Positions 48,758 through 56,740 of a DNA stretch of 64,000 nt are shown one piece after another. Position 1 is the stretch's first letter. Each line of letters starts with the position of its first letter. A program made the translations under genes and the position numbers. The notes below the pieces were generated by a model. The model worked only from the letters and a program-made list of their open reading frames with translations, was not told where the DNA came from and did no database searches. The stretch comes from Snodgrassella communis (GTDB lineage: Bacteria; Pseudomonadota; Gammaproteobacteria; Burkholderiales; Neisseriaceae), in NCBI RefSeq assembly GCF_914768045.1, contig NZ_CAJZCD010000001.1, positions 248,001-312,000 of the forward strand, read 5' to 3'.

Positions 48758-49387
48758 ATGAACCCGCCAACCATCTATCTGGCTTCAGGCAGCCCGCGCC
48801 GGCGTGAAATCCTCACTAACCTTGGCTACCATGTCCTGCGCCTACCTGCAGAAATTGATGAAACGCCTTATCCGAGCGAAAACGCAACAGATTACGTCCA
48901 GCGCATGGCACGCATGAAAAATAGTGCTGCGCTTACCACATGGCAACAAAACCAGCAACAGCCACCCGAATTTCCCCTTATCAGCGCCGATACCACCGTC
49001 AGCTTAAATAACCTGATTCTGGGCAAACCAGCCAGCCCCGACGATGCATTCCGCATACTCAAACTACTTTCAGGACGTCAACATCAAGTTCACACCGCAG
49101 TTTGTATTTACTGGCACAACCACACCAGCGACGTTCTGCAAACCAGCACCGTCCACTTCGCCTCCTTACAGGACGAGCAGATTACTGCCTACATTGCTAC
49201 CGGCGAACCACTGGATAAAGCAGGAGCCTATGGTATTCAAGGGTTAGGTGGCATGTTAGTCGAATACATCAGTGGCAGCTTTACCGGCATCATGGGTTTG
49301 CCTGTATATGAAACCACCCAGTTACTCAGCCAATACGGCTGTACACCACTTAACCAATCACAATCAATCAGTTCCGTACCAGTATAG
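48758..49387 (+). CDS. maf: Maf family nucleotide pyrophosphatase (YhdE type)
   Basis: A 209-residue Maf protein: IYLASGSPRRREILTNLGY, EIDETPYPSENATDYVQRMA, ISADTTVSLNNLILGKP, and KAGAYGIQGLGGMLVEYISG. Maf enzymes hydrolyse dTTP/UTP or modified nucleotides. The gene is followed within 5 bases by a small lipoprotein gene. Confidence 0.93.
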   Translation: MNPPTIYLASGSPRRREILTNLGYHVLRLPAEIDETPYPSENATDYVQRMARMKNSAALTTWQQNQQQPPEFPLISADTTVSLNNLILGKPASPDDAFRILKLLSGRQHQVHTAVCIYWHNHTSDVLQTSTVHFASLQDEQITAYIATGEPLDKAGAYGIQGLGGMLVEYISGSFTGIMGLPVYETTQLLSQYGCTPLNQSQSISSVPV

Positions 49388-49391
49388 AATC

Positions 49392-49634
49392 ATGAAACGC
49401 TCTTCATTACTGCTCATTGTCACCATTACCTGCATAGCTGCCTGTTCACACCACGAAAACCATCGCAGCGCCAGCGAAACTGCGGCTATCACCGCTTCAG
49501 ATGTACAAAATGCCCATCTGGAAGCCACCATTACTCTCGACCAAATAGCAAATGAACCAGCTTCGGGCAGCAGCACACCAATCTCACATCACCATTCAGC
49601 ACAACCTGCCTCCACCCACTTACAAAACCAATAA
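49392..49634 (+). CDS. Small lipoprotein of unknown function
   Basis: The 80-residue product has a lipoprotein signal peptide (MKRSSLLLIVTITCIAAC, lipobox IAAC) and a low-complexity mature part rich in Ser, Ala, His and Thr (SHHENHRS, ISHHHS). The His clusters might bind metal, but that is a guess. It begins 5 bases after the maf stop and is probably co-transcribed. Confidence 0.65.
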   Translation: MKRSSLLLIVTITCIAACSHHENHRSASETAAITASDVQNAHLEATITLDQIANEPASGSSTPISHHHSAQPASTHLQNQ

Positions 49635-49836: not shown

Positions 49837-49890
49837 TTGACGTACAAAAATCAAAACCCTACCATTCTTGATTAAATAACTTAATCAAGA
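49837..49890 (+). promoter_or_regulatory. Promoter and 25-bp palindromic operator of the umuD-like operon
   Basis: -35 TTGACG (49837-49842), 17-base spacer, and -10 TACCAT (49860-49865) are followed at once by a perfect palindrome with 10-base arms, TCTTGATTAA (49866-49875) and TTAATCAAGA (49881-49890), around ATAAC. It covers the expected transcription start and reaches the first ATG. Its position fits a repressor site, most simply for the UmuD-like protein itself. Confidence 0.75.
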
Positions 49891-50513
49891 TGAGCATCTT
49901 AATGGTTGATACCGCAACAAAATCCAATGGACATGGAGGCACCAGAGCCGGAGCTGGACGTAAAGCCAAAATTGCTGAGCCCAAAATAGTCAAACGCATA
50001 CCTGTAAGCCTGATACCCACAGTAGAACACCTGATAAACCAACTGGCTGATACCCCGCTGCGCCCAGCACAACATCTGCCTGCCAATTGCTGGAAAATAG
50101 CTGACAACCTCAGCCAATTAAACATCCCATTAGCCACAGAAACCATTCCTGCCGGCTTTCCCAGCCCGGCAGAACCTTATATCAGCGATTATCTGGATTT
50201 CAACCAATACCTAATAAAAAACCAGGCTGCCACCATTGCCGTACGCTGTGGCGGAGACTCCATGCACGATGCCGGCATCAGCCGCAACGACCTGCTCATC
50301 ATCGATCGTTCCCTCACCCCCAGACACCGCGACATCGTCATGGCCGACTTGGGTAACGAATTCACCATCAAACGCCTGCACAAACTAAGTAACAACCACA
50401 TCGAACTGCATTCCGAAAACAGCAGCCAGTCCTATCCCAACTTCAGCTTTAGAGAAGGCGATACCCTCACCATCGTCGGCGTAGTCACCTACATTATCAA
50501 ACACACCCGTTAA
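49890..50513 (+). CDS. Long UmuD-like self-cleaving protein (S24 peptidase), possible DNA-damage repressor
   Basis: This 207-residue protein has a UmuD-type C-terminal peptidase: cleavage site IPAGFPSPAEP (Ala88-Gly89), nucleophile Ser124 in GGDSMHDAG and Lys161 in EFTIKRL. The Ser-Lys spacing of 37 equals that of E. coli UmuD, where cleavage is at Cys24-Gly25. An extra 65 residues precede it, with GGTRAGAGRK and KRIPVSLIPTVEHLINQLA, which could be a ribbon-helix-helix DNA-binding element. Acinetobacter UmuDAb is similarly long and acts as a repressor. An ATG at 49902 (203 residues) has the better ribosome site. Confidence 0.88.
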   Translation: MSILMVDTATKSNGHGGTRAGAGRKAKIAEPKIVKRIPVSLIPTVEHLINQLADTPLRPAQHLPANCWKIADNLSQLNIPLATETIPAGFPSPAEPYISDYLDFNQYLIKNQAATIAVRCGGDSMHDAGISRNDLLIIDRSLTPRHRDIVMADLGNEFTIKRLHKLSNNHIELHSENSSQSYPNFSFREGDTLTIVGVVTYIIKHTR

Positions 50514-50523
50514 CCCAGAAATC

Positions 50524-51921
50524 ATGTTATCAGATCAACAACTTGCCTTTGTCGATATCGAAACTACCGGTGGCCGTACTACCAGCGATCGCATTACCGA
50601 AATCGCCGTCGTCTACACTGAAGCTGGTCAGCAACAGCCACAGGTTTTCCACACCCTGCTAAATCCCAACACCAGCATTCCACCTTTCATTCAGGCTCTT
50701 ACCGGCATCAGCAACCAAATGGTAGAACAGGCACCACATTTCAACGACGAAATTGCCGATCAGCTCAGTGCCATTTTCAAAGGGCGTATCTTCGCCGCCC
50801 ACAACGTACGCTTTGATTACGGCTTCATCAAAGCCGCCTTCAAACGTCTGGGCAGAACCTTCAACCCACAACAACTATGTACCGTCAAACTGTCACGTCA
50901 GCTTTACCCTGAACACAAACATCATGGGCTGGACAAAATCATTGCCCGTCACAACATCGACATGCACAACCGCCACCGTGCCTTTGCCGATGCACGCGCC
51001 ATCTACGACTTCTGGCAGCAGCTCAAACACAACTTTCCAGCCGACATACTGCATCAGGCTTGCAAAACCATCATGCAACGCCCCAGCCTGCCCGCCCACC
51101 TTAACAACGATATCCTGAAAAACATCAGTGACGATTACGGCGTGTACCTCATATACGGCGATAACGACCTCCCCTTATATATCGGCAAAAGCAAACAAGT
51201 TAAAACCCGCCTGCTGAGCCATTTCGGTCAGGATGTACACAACAGCAAAGAAATGAGCCTGTCACAGCAGGCCAAAAAAATAGACGTAATCCCTTGCAGT
51301 GGCGAACTGGATGCCCTGCTCACCGAATCTGCACAAATCAAACAGCGCCAGCCTATCCTCAACCGTCGCCTGCGCCGTCAGAAAGACCTGTTCAGCTTCC
51401 AGCTCAGTACCAACACACACGGCTACGACACCTTGAACATCGTGCCCATGCATCACGTCCAGTTCAACCAGCAACAGCGCTACTACGGCCTGTTTCACAG
51501 CAAAAGCGATGCACAGAAAGCCATCAAAAATACCATCAGCAACACCGACCTGTGTCTGCAAACCCTTGGTATCGAAAAAGGCAGCAGCAACCGCCCCTGC
51601 TTCCGCCACCAACTACACCAATGCAGCGGCGCTTGCATCAACAAAATTACTGCCACCACCCACAACCTCAAACTGGCACTGGCCTTACAAAAAATCAAAC
51701 TGGCCGATTGGCCATTTACCAGCTATGCCTACATCAAAGAACAGCAAAAATACCATATCTTCCATCAATGGATTTATCTGGGTAGCGCCAGTAACAACGA
51801 CCAACTGCACACCATCCTCAGCCAGCCACAAGGCCAGCTCGATCGAGACATTTATCAAATCATCCAGCAGCACAAACACCGCCTGCAAGCCCTGAATCCC
51901 ACTCATGTTTGCCCTGATTGA
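50524..51921 (+). CDS. DnaQ-like 3'-5' exonuclease fused to GIY-YIG (Cho/UvrC-type) nuclease
   Basis: This 465-residue fusion has an N-terminal DEDDh exonuclease (FVDIETTGG, AAHNVRFDYGFIKAAF, HRAFADARAIYDFW) and then a GIY-YIG domain (YGVYLIYGDNDLPLYIGKS, with catalytic Glu in LLTESAQIKQRQP). A Cys cluster follows (CFRHQLHQCSGAC), as in UvrC-like proteins. Such DnaQ-Cho fusions are known in bacteria as UvrC-like repair nucleases. It lies between the umuD-like gene (10 bases upstream) and umuC (17-base overlap), so it is made with them. Confidence 0.9.
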   Translation: MLSDQQLAFVDIETTGGRTTSDRITEIAVVYTEAGQQQPQVFHTLLNPNTSIPPFIQALTGISNQMVEQAPHFNDEIADQLSAIFKGRIFAAHNVRFDYGFIKAAFKRLGRTFNPQQLCTVKLSRQLYPEHKHHGLDKIIARHNIDMHNRHRAFADARAIYDFWQQLKHNFPADILHQACKTIMQRPSLPAHLNNDILKNISDDYGVYLIYGDNDLPLYIGKSKQVKTRLLSHFGQDVHNSKEMSLSQQAKKIDVIPCSGELDALLTESAQIKQRQPILNRRLRRQKDLFSFQLSTNTHGYDTLNIVPMHHVQFNQQQRYYGLFHSKSDAQKAIKNTISNTDLCLQTLGIEKGSSNRPCFRHQLHQCSGACINKITATTHNLKLALALQKIKLADWPFTSYAYIKEQQKYHIFHQWIYLGSASNNDQLHTILSQPQGQLDRDIYQIIQQHKHRLQALNPTHVCPD

Positions 51922-53167
51922 CGGCAATAACTTCTATTGCTCCTGCGAAAGAGTTTATCGCCCTGAACTCAAACAACAGCCCATCATCGTCCTGAGTAAC
52001 AATGATGGCTGCGTCATCTCCCGCTCCAGCGAAGCCAAAGACATCGGCATCAAAATGGGCGTCCCCTATTTCCAGATTCAGCACCTCATTCAGCAGAGAA
52101 AACTCACCGTTTTTTCCTCCAATTACGAACTATATGCCGACCTGTCACGGCGCATGATGAACACCATCGCCTCCCTCGTGCCAGCGATTGAAATCTACTC
52201 CATCGACGAATGCTTTGCCGACCTGCACAACCTGAATAACCTGCACCAGCTCGGCCACAACATCCGCAACCGCATCCAGCAATGGGTAGGCATACCCACC
52301 TGCGTCGGCATCGCACCCACCCGCACTCTGGCCAAATTCTGCAACCATCTGGCCAAACGCTACCGCCACCATTTCAACGGCGTCATCGTCTGGACAGACT
52401 GGAATCCCAACATCCAGCAACGCGCCCTTGCCAGCACCCCTGTTAGCGAAATCTGGGGAATCGGCCGCAGAATCGGCCAGAAACTCGCAGCTCAAGGCAT
52501 CCATACCGCCCTCGACTTCATCAACGCCCATACCCCCACCCTTAGAAAACAATTCGGCGTCGTACTCGAGCGTACCCAGCGCGAAATGCAGGGTTTACCC
52601 TGTAGCGAACTCATCATCAACGAAGCCAGTCGCCAGCACATCGTTCGCAGCCGCAGCTTTGGCAACATAATTACCAGCCTCGACGGACTGCAAGCAGCCA
52701 TCAGCCACCACATCAGTGCTGGTGCGGCCAAACTGCGTCAACAAAACAGCTACGCCCACATCATCAGCATTTTTATCTACACCAACCGCTTTCGCCACGA
52801 CCAATCCCAATACAACGGCTACCAGTCTATCAAACTGCCACAGCCCAGTGCTGACACCCTCACCCTAAACCATATCGCCCAGAATCTGCTGCGCAACATC
52901 TACCGCCCCGGCTACAAATATAAAAAATGCGGCATCGAACTAAGTGGCATTGAACCAGCACAGACATTCCAGCAACAGGACTTACTTTATCCCAGCCAAC
53001 ACAACCACAGCACCAAACTCATGAGCGCATGGGATAGCATCACCAGCCGTTACGGCCGCAACAGCATCCAGCTAGGCAGCGAACTGCAATCCAGCCACTG
53101 GCACATGACCCGCGCACAACTCAGCCCGTGCTATACCACCCAGTTTCTGGAAATATTAACTATATAA
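51905..53167 (+). CDS. umuC: Y-family DNA polymerase V catalytic subunit UmuC
   Basis: A 420-residue UmuC: MFALIDGNNFYCSCERVYRP with the metal-binding Asp, VVLSNNDGCVISRSSEAK, YSIDECFAD with catalytic Asp-Glu, HhH segment VSEIWGIGRRIGQKLAAQGI and the little-finger domain. It performs translesion synthesis and normally needs cleaved UmuD. Its start lies inside the exonuclease gene. It is intact at 420 residues. Confidence 0.95.
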   Translation: MFALIDGNNFYCSCERVYRPELKQQPIIVLSNNDGCVISRSSEAKDIGIKMGVPYFQIQHLIQQRKLTVFSSNYELYADLSRRMMNTIASLVPAIEIYSIDECFADLHNLNNLHQLGHNIRNRIQQWVGIPTCVGIAPTRTLAKFCNHLAKRYRHHFNGVIVWTDWNPNIQQRALASTPVSEIWGIGRRIGQKLAAQGIHTALDFINAHTPTLRKQFGVVLERTQREMQGLPCSELIINEASRQHIVRSRSFGNIITSLDGLQAAISHHISAGAAKLRQQNSYAHIISIFIYTNRFRHDQSQYNGYQSIKLPQPSADTLTLNHIAQNLLRNIYRPGYKYKKCGIELSGIEPAQTFQQQDLLYPSQHNHSTKLMSAWDSITSRYGRNSIQLGSELQSSHWHMTRAQLSPCYTTQFLEILTI

Positions 53168-55601: not shown

Positions 55602-55904
55602 ATGATGAATCAACAAAAACGTGTACAACACTCTTTCAGTGCTGATTTCAAAGCACAAATGGTTAAACTTTATCAGCAAGGAAAATCGCGCAGTGAATTG
55701 GTCAAGCAATACGATTTGACACCTTCCGCTTTAGACCGCTGGATAAGCCAATCTAGTAAAAGCGGTTCTTTTAAGACCAAAGATAATCGCACTCCAGAAG
55801 AAAATGAACTGATTGCTTTACGAAAAGAGCTTAAGCAACTGCGGATGGAAAACGATATCCTAAAGCAGGCTGCACTGATAATGGCACGAAAATCAAAATC
55901 CTGA
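55602..55904 (+). CDS. IS3-family transposase OrfA
   Basis: A 100-residue HTH protein: RVQHSFSADFKAQMVKLYQQ, SRSELVKQYDLTPSALDRWI, and a leucine-zipper-like end (ENELIALRKELKQLRMENDI). It binds the IS ends. The frame ends inside the 5' part of orfB, which is in the -1 frame; an A-rich stretch (ACGAAAATCAAAAT) near 55886-55899 is the likely slippage region. Confidence 0.9.
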   Translation: MMNQQKRVQHSFSADFKAQMVKLYQQGKSRSELVKQYDLTPSALDRWISQSSKSGSFKTKDNRTPEENELIALRKELKQLRMENDILKQAALIMARKSKS

Positions 55905-56002
55905 AAGCAAACCAGCATCGTTATGCTGTAACGGCATTACGTCGCTGCTTAGGGATATCCAGACATTATGCCTATTATCAGTGCAAAACCACTAAACGGA
56001 AA

Positions 56003-56740
56003 TTGGTTGCCCATTACGCCGATAAAATATTGACTATTTTTAAACGCAGCTATCAATCCTATGGAACCAGACGCATTCGTTTTGCTTTACAACAAGCAGG
56101 TATCAGTGTTTCTCGTCGTTACATTGCCCGAGTAATGAAGTCGCTATCATTGGTATCAAAGTATACGATTAAACGTTATCGAGGGTATCAGATAGCAAGC
56201 AATAGTGCAGTCACAGCTAATCATTTACAGCGTCAATTTGATGTAGGTACCAAACAGCAGATTATAGTGGCAGACTTAACCTATATTCGTGTTAACCATT
56301 GCTGGAATTATTTGTGTGTACTACTTAATTTATCGAACCGACAGATTGCCGGTTATAGTGTAGGACAACATAAAACAGCAGATTTAGTGATGTCTGCACT
56401 AAGTCAAATTAAGCAACCGCTGTCATCATTACATCTGTTTCATTCAGATAGAGGAAAGGAATTTGATAATCAATTGCTAGATAAGTGTTTTAATACATTT
56501 AATATACAGCGTTCACTAAGTAAAAAGGGATGTCCGTATGACAATGCAGTGGCAGAAGCAACATTTAAAAGCATTAAAACTGAATTTGTTAAAGGGGAAA
56601 AATTCATGACGACTGAAGAATTAGAACAAGCCTTTGCGGCTTATGCTTATTGGTACAATCATAAACGGTTACATTCGTCATTGGGCTATTTGCCTCCGGT
56701 AGAATTTAACAAACGGCTACCCCTTAATTTTGTTGTTTGA
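56003..56740 (+). CDS. IS3-family transposase OrfB (DDE integrase core)
   Basis: From the first near-start codon the product is 245 residues. The open frame continues upstream to overlap orfA (ILKANQHRYAVTALRRCLGI), so the real product is probably an OrfAB fusion made by -1 frameshifting. DDE residues are in IVADLTYIRV, HSDRGKEFDN and YDNAVAEATFKSIKTE. The end YNHKRLHSSLGYLPPVEFN is typical. The coding region has no stops, so this copy may be active. Confidence 0.9.
   Translation: MVAHYADKILTIFKRSYQSYGTRRIRFALQQAGISVSRRYIARVMKSLSLVSKYTIKRYRGYQIASNSAVTANHLQRQFDVGTKQQIIVADLTYIRVNHCWNYLCVLLNLSNRQIAGYSVGQHKTADLVMSALSQIKQPLSSLHLFHSDRGKEFDNQLLDKCFNTFNIQRSLSKKGCPYDNAVAEATFKSIKTEFVKGEKFMTTEELEQAFAAYAYWYNHKRLHSSLGYLPPVEFNKRLPLNFVV

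Follow-up and report, generated by a model that had tools for sequence, protein, structure and literature searches.

We analysed a stretch of 64,000 nucleotides (hereafter the window) from Snodgrassella communis, a bee-gut bacterium whose genome is represented here by 2.31 Mb in 28 contigs. At positions 49837 to 53167 the window carries a palindrome at a promoter, a long umuD, a nuclease gene and umuC, and we consider it likely that these form a self-repressed mutagenesis operon of the type represented by UmuDAb in Acinetobacter. We favour this reading because of the anatomy of the genes, the UmuDAb-like N-terminus and operator layout, the conservation among relatives, the joint decay of N-terminus and operator in one Snodgrassella genome (G080), the lack of any LexA over the model cut-off and the presence of recA. 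A UmuDAb-like self-repressor had been proposed in the original prediction, made from the letters of the window alone, and the homologous N-terminus and the shared operator layout bear this out. Published systems are described below from passages of the cited papers, and L and G numbers are our handles for loci and genomes.

The umuD operon and its palindrome

The features of the operon are as follows, in positions of the window, where bp is base pairs, aa amino acids, ORF open reading frame and Pol V DNA polymerase V.

49837-49865, + strand: promoter with -35 TTGACG, 17-nt spacer and -10 TACCAT (consensus scan, conservation)
49866-49890, no strand: putative self-operator TCTTGATTAA-ATAAC-TTAATCAAGA (palindrome scan, conservation, published UmuDAb layout)
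49868-49888: 21-bp UmuDAb-like part of the putative operator, TTGA-N4-ATAAC-N4-TCAA
49890-50513, + strand: long UmuD, 207 aa, putative autorepressor and Pol V subunit (ORF, Pfam, NCBIfam, alignment)
49932-50057, + strand: GRK/extended-helix region, UmuD residues 15-56, common with UmuDAb (alignments, structure model, homology)
50151-50156, + strand: predicted Ala88-Gly89 self-cleavage site (invariant in alignment A2)
50259-50261, + strand: Ser124 codon, predicted catalytic (invariant in A2)
50370-50372, + strand: Lys161 codon, predicted catalytic (invariant in A2)
50524-51921, + strand: DnaQ-type exonuclease fused to a GIY-YIG/Cho-like nuclease, 465 aa (ORF, Pfam, NCBIfam, alignment)
51905-53167, + strand: UmuC, Y-family polymerase, 420 aa (ORF, Pfam, NCBIfam)

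The palindrome starts directly after the -10 box and ends on the A of the umuD ATG. It had been described as a perfect palindrome of 25 bp; the position and the 10-bp arms, which are perfect, agree with that description, but one of the two pairs in the 5-bp centre is mismatched. One match was found in the window against none in 100 shuffles, no second copy with fewer than two mismatches exists anywhere in the genome, and 24 of the 25 columns are invariant in 11 Snodgrassella genomes. Given the empty shuffles, the genome-wide uniqueness and this conservation, the palindrome is not due to chance. Mean conservation in the gapped alignment of the 11 genomes is 0.996 for the operator, 0.94 for the promoter stretch, where 20 of 29 columns are invariant, and 0.85 further upstream. 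The promoter matches the consensus at 9 of 12 positions; since the scan found two such sites against a shuffle mean of five, the match alone proves nothing.

The three genes nearly touch or overlap in the ORF list of the window, the nuclease gene starting 10 nt past umuD and overlapping umuC by 17 nt. The third gene exceeds the Pfam cut-offs for IMS, IMS_C and DUF4113, and lies just below that of the NCBIfam UmuC model (419.6 bits, cut-off 431).

The long UmuD protein

The first protein had been read as a UmuD homologue that keeps the Ser124/Lys161 pair and the Ala88-Gly89 cleavage site at UmuD spacing, and our results agree. It carries the Pfam domain Peptidase_S24 at residues 84-199 and passes the NCBIfam UmuD subfamily model (130.5 bits, cut-off 110), and Ala88, Gly89, Ser124 and Lys161 are invariant in an alignment of 16 sequences including that of the window (A2), which leaves out the relative L030. 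Gly-Ser and Ser-Lys spacings are 35 and 37 residues, respectively, which we take to be those of Escherichia coli UmuD. The S24 part of the predicted structure is confident and matches UmuD', the top structural match, as well as UmuD on the RecA filament. The protein resembles E. coli UmuD, the accessory subunit of Pol V, in its S24 domain and in having umuC in the same operon, but differs from it by about 64 extra N-terminal residues and by the lack of a visible LexA box.

With LexA it would share the logic of a repressor with S24 self-cleavage. However, the match of the window UmuD to the lexA model is confined to the S24 part, at 54 bits against a cut-off of 110.95, and no LexA DNA-binding domain was found in the protein, where Peptidase_S24 is the sole Pfam domain.

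A few relatives deviate from this pattern. One Snodgrassella genome has a second, short UmuD (L031, G068:C1:116902-117219). L028 and L030, from genus g7, are long UmuD-like genes with no close umuC within 1,500 bases, although a weak Y-family-like match (25%, E 6e-11) lies about 830 bases downstream of L028; the UmuD of L030 is without the Ala-Gly cleavage site.

The N-terminal region and its likeness to UmuDAb

The extra N-terminus bears the motif GG.R.GAGRK..EP...KR.P.S. Over their full lengths, the window UmuD and UmuDAb of A. baumannii (L068) align with 42% identity, and a single hhalign comparison of the N-termini alone gave a probability of 97.9 and an E-value of 4.2e-13. In the structure model residues 31-38 are extended and residues 39-53 form one helix with good confidence, whereas the predicted local distance difference test (pLDDT) is below 50 for residues 58-64 and 67-92. 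Of the suggested ribbon-helix-helix fold the model shows an extended segment and one helix, but DSSP assigned no strand to residues 31-38 and there is no confident second helix after residues 39-53; hence the model is compatible with half of a ribbon-helix-helix, without proving it. A profile search of PDB sequences gave no relative of the N-terminus, and there was no fitting Pfam relative; it does match PHROG 21736, a family of unknown function.

The published UmuDAb operator is 21 bp long, with a five-base GTnAC core flanked by TTGA and TCAA arms (PMC11332147). The likeness to UmuDAb comprises a long UmuD with a homologous N-terminus, an S24 domain with the Ala-Gly site and the Ser/Lys pair (PMC11332147, PMC4807011, PMC7273328), a genus without LexA, and a 21-bp site, a putative operator in Snodgrassella, with TTGA/TCAA arms and a 5-bp core at the gene's own promoter. 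On the other hand, the core is ATAAC in Snodgrassella and GTnAC in Acinetobacter, so that the UmuDAb-like form foreseen for the site holds for arms and spacing but not for the core. In addition, the Snodgrassella gene lies in an operon with the nuclease gene and umuC whereas that of Acinetobacter is divergent from ddrR, the site follows the -10 box immediately in Snodgrassella but lies over -35 elements in Acinetobacter, and the Snodgrassella genome holds one exact site.

Among 18 named Acinetobacter loci, 15 have the exact 21-bp pattern (hand count), such as TTGAAAATGTAACTTTTTCAA ahead of the long UmuD of A. baumannii (L068); L075 and L140 have one mismatch, and the pattern is absent at L067, which has an insertion sequence upstream. 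It also stands at short UmuDs on viral contigs (host unstated), which agrees with reports that UmuDAb represses umuDC genes of prophages (PMC3978071, PMC4807011). We found no UmuDAb-type system outside Acinetobacter in the literature searched, which covers only a minority of subscription journals, and in the passages used the UmuDAb papers treat the core-containing operator, unlike known LexA boxes, as an Acinetobacter feature (PMC11332147).

Conservation in Snodgrassella and other Neisseriaceae

A full umuD gene is present in 12 of the 14 Snodgrassella genomes (L009-L020). In G078 no umuD relative was matched, and in G076 the match is partial, umuD being cut by the contig end and the umuD and umuC frames looking broken. 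The twelfth full gene (L020, in G080) has an N-terminus without GAGRK and KRIP while its S24 residues are kept, and four operator bases and one -10 base differ from the window. Judged from the sequences, such co-decay is what would be expected of a DNA-binding domain and its site once their function was lost.

Relatives of umuD occur in 22 of 83 genomes of the family Neisseriaceae, representing 4 of 12 genera. Sites outside Snodgrassella are TTGATTTTGTAACTTAATCAA at L021 and L024, TTGATTGTGTAACTTAATCAA at L025 and L026, TTGATTGAGTAACTTAATCAA at L027, ATGATTTTGTTACAAAATCAA at L022 and ATGATTTTGTTACGAAATCAA at L023, each with a GTAAC or GTTAC core in the corresponding position, and at L024-L027 a TATAAT ends one base ahead of the site; genus g7 (L028, L030) has GTTAC with other spacing. 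A tree of 51 UmuDs separates the Neisseriaceae, as a single group (100/98), from Acinetobacter, which makes up a group of its own.

No LexA over the model cut-off

The lexA search that had been suggested found no protein over the model cut-off, either in the genome of the window or in any of the 83 family genomes, against 6 of 14 controls, and the LexA DNA-binding domain stays below its own cut-off throughout the genome of the window. This genome has recA, and two further S24 proteins at C2:426707 and C1:108484. The lack of LexA over the cut-off agrees with the predicted LexA-independent damage response, but that term is wider than what is seen, which is one exact site at this operon. A small self-regulated damage response without LexA has been described for FddR of Francisella, also an S24 protein, which that study however places among lambdoid phage repressors rather than with UmuD (PMC13148647).

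The nuclease gene and the surroundings of the operon

The reported insertion of a nuclease gene between umuD and umuC is confirmed by the ORFs and by 12 Snodgrassella loci. Its product contains RNase_T at residues 9-161 and GIY-YIG at residues 205-245 (22.9 bits, cut-off 22.6), and residues 189-449 resemble the excinuclease Cho (NCBIfam, 211 bits, under the cut-off of 367). In 11 aligned proteins the residues of both active sites, which we take to be the catalytic ones, are invariant. The gene cho of E. coli is damage-inducible. The window protein shares both domains and the conserved active-site residues with DEDD exonuclease/GIY-YIG proteins and Cho (NCBIfam PRK07883, PRK10545), but differs from them in scoring under the cut-offs and in lying inside a umuDC operon.

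This copy is found in 12 of the 14 Snodgrassella genomes, always between umuD and umuC, beside a distant paralogue that is the only copy in 61 of 71 other family genomes (mostly 30-36% identity, higher over short stretches). At L021, L022, L024, L026 and L027, umuC directly follows umuD with no nuclease between them. Its location between the umuD and umuC genes is particular to Snodgrassella. At L105 (G135:C1, minus strand), in a distant genome of the class, the order is umuC, exonuclease/Cho, long umuD with a GRK N-terminus, the sole such arrangement among 19 class-sample loci, and a repeat GTGTTACA...TGTAACAC lies upstream of its umuC.

A maf gene lies upstream of umuD in L009-L020 and in L131 (Snodgrassella alvi App4-8), and was not found there at L021-L030. 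In the window, the ORF at 49272-49634 (+ strand) ends, from an inner ATG, in what reads like a small lipoprotein, with a weak NCBIfam match to the Ag473 family far under the cut-off. Downstream of the operon, two ORFs at 55602-56740 (+ strand) in an AT-rich stretch resemble, by reading alone, an IS3-type transposase pair.

Long UmuDs with upstream dyads in the wider class

A profile of the N-terminus matched 33 of 369 genomes of the class and 29 of 272 genera, totals that include the genome of the window itself and a small number of weak matches, with E-values up to 1e-3. We searched from -70 to +5 of the start codon for the dyad TGAWT-N10-13-AWTCA, allowing at most one mismatch, in two sets of long UmuDs, both outside Acinetobacter and Neisseriaceae. 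The dyad was present at 16 of 27 long UmuDs in the first set and at 16 of 26 in the class sample, where 2.56 were expected in either case. Among short UmuDs it occurred at 3 of 38 (expected 2.58), and among other gene starts at 2 of 43 (expected 2.15). Fisher p-values against short UmuDs are 1.2e-5 and 9e-6, respectively, and 3e-7 for the class sample against other genes, values that overstate independence as loci within the sets are partly related. GTAC or GTNAC is in the centre of 26 of the 32 hits (hand count). The LexA box CTGTN8ACAG, in turn, was found at 6 of 38 short UmuDs and at none of 53 long ones.

The class sample of 30 loci was reduced to 26 by leaving out L345 (the window's own), L330 (the gene of L105), and L336 and L352 (near contig ends). 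Of these 26 UmuDs, 25 have the Pfam S24 domain, L333 being the exception; L326 and L329 repeat the first-set genes L164 and L151, and without them the dyad count is 15 of 24. A further sample added a single clear member, L355, which has TGATTTATGTACATTATTCA upstream, and L360, the same gene as L292, has TGATTACTGTGTCAATAATCA upstream.

The dyad test was not fully blind, as its length range of 20-23 was picked after a test for GTNAC-centred palindromes had failed in the class sample, and its arms were known beforehand. That rejected test had found 10 of 32 long against 0 of 40 short UmuDs in the first set (expected 0.37 and 0.36); long L156, L187, L199, L215 and L218 and short L159 and L183 were left out after it. 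Since GTAC cores had been seen between the same arms in the class-sample upstreams, the arms were tested and the core was not. At up to two mismatches the dyad is uninformative (long 21 of 26 and 21 of 27, short 20 of 38, other 14 of 43; expected 14 to 16). A general dyad test that required at least 7 of 8 pairs was passed at 7 of 26 and 7 of 27 long UmuDs, at 7 of the 38 short ones and at 3 of the 43 other genes. It does not tell long and short UmuDs apart, in part because LexA boxes are themselves palindromic.

A dyad rule restricted to long UmuDs has exceptions in Chromobacteriaceae/Neisseriaceae, where the short UmuDs L181 and L201 (also L160 and L207) are preceded by sites resembling TTGAATTTGTACAAATTCAA or TTGATTTTGTACATAATCAA. 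Look-alike sites also occur in prophage DNA, at G000:C5 24743, 56380, 57950, 67758 and 68966 (L117-L119), and at L120-L127, L129 and, in genus g4, L128, an example being TTGATTATGTAACAGATTCAA. They flank genes, in neighbourhoods that include endolysin, baseplate hub, Rha-like and RecT-like families. In several cases the site comes after a stop codon and before a GCCAGC..GCTGGC hairpin, and for this reason resembles the end of a cassette more than an operator. Additional sites whose GTNAC core is intact are present in 10 of the 22 family genomes that have umuD and in 1 of the 61 that do not (hand count, sites inspected in part), but 8 of these 10 genomes are Snodgrassella, so kinship confounds the comparison.

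From these sequence comparisons, UmuDAb seems to belong to a broader group of UmuDs that have operators of their own. We lean slightly towards the more general view that UmuDs with the GRK N-terminus are widespread LexA-independent self-operated damage switches in Pseudomonadota with their own TGAWTA-GT(N)AC-TAWTCA dyads, UmuDAb being just the representative in Acinetobacter. They would serve as the main mutagenesis switch in LexA-less families such as the Neisseriaceae, extended by a UvrC-like nuclease in Snodgrassella and perhaps read by prophage sites.

Proposed mechanism and alternative explanations

Operator binding, repression, cleavage, damage induction and the role of the nuclease are what we infer from the analysis above. 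Uncleaved long UmuD would dimerise through its S24 domain, and its N-terminal GRK/extended-helix region would bind TTGA-N4-(A/G)TnAC-N4-TCAA between the -10 box and the start codon, thereby keeping umuD, the nuclease gene and umuC from being transcribed. Once RecA had formed filaments on damaged DNA, these would trigger cleavage at Ala88-Gly89, which would remove the DNA-binding part and release the operon. The remaining UmuD' could join UmuC as Pol V, and the operon nuclease would add damage-inducible incision and 3'-5' trimming.

Several observations weigh against this interpretation. GTnAC is crucial for UmuDAb in vitro (PMC11332147) and Snodgrassella has ATAAC, although an A at the first core position is not among the UmuDAb core mutants in the passages of that paper used here. 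DdrR, the co-repressor of UmuDAb, is reported in the passages used only from Acinetobacter, and was not searched for in Snodgrassella. Moreover, the exact site stands at one operon only in the genome, the co-decay of N-terminus and operator is seen in the single lineage of G080, and the GTNAC-only test failed in the class sample with 2 of 28 (expected 0.28).

The palindrome might instead serve as operator for a different regulator, such as an S24 repressor of the prophage type; the long UmuD would then be no more than a subunit of Pol V whose N-terminus is superfluous. The two further S24 proteins of the genome and the look-alike sites in prophages would fit this explanation, but we regard it as quite unlikely, because the type of site tracks the N-terminus in Neisseriaceae and exactly so at the 15 of 18 named Acinetobacter loci, dyads stand at long UmuDs and are rare at short ones, N-terminus and site decay together in G080, and the homologue UmuDAb binds such a site (PMC11332147). 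That the inverted repeat acts in the mRNA, as a hairpin over the start codon, is suggested by its overlap with the A of the ATG in Snodgrassella. However, the distance to the start varies in relatives, up to about 65 bases upstream in Acinetobacter, and it is the sequence itself that stays conserved, which makes a role in the mRNA highly improbable.

A different doubt concerns the function of the protein rather than that of the site: the operon may be regulated as proposed while UmuD is a pure repressor that does not serve Pol V, as with A. baylyi UmuDAb, which failed to complement an E. coli umuD mutant (PMC4807011). We find this unlikely for Snodgrassella, where umuC is in the umuD operon at all 12 loci, and G080 keeps the S24 part of UmuD despite its decayed N-terminus; umuC also directly follows umuD in the five Neisseriaceae loci without a nuclease between them.

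If a self-repressed, UmuDAb-type operon is the correct reading, the homologous pair of protein and site in a family without LexA, together with the matching pairs in other genera, would mean that self-repression of Pol V is a general alternative to control by LexA, with a testable rule: where the N-terminus is present a self-operator is expected, and where it is absent a LexA box or control in trans. It would also place a damage-type nuclease under the same switch as a mutagenic polymerase, and would give the LexA-less Neisseriaceae a route to induce mutagenesis.

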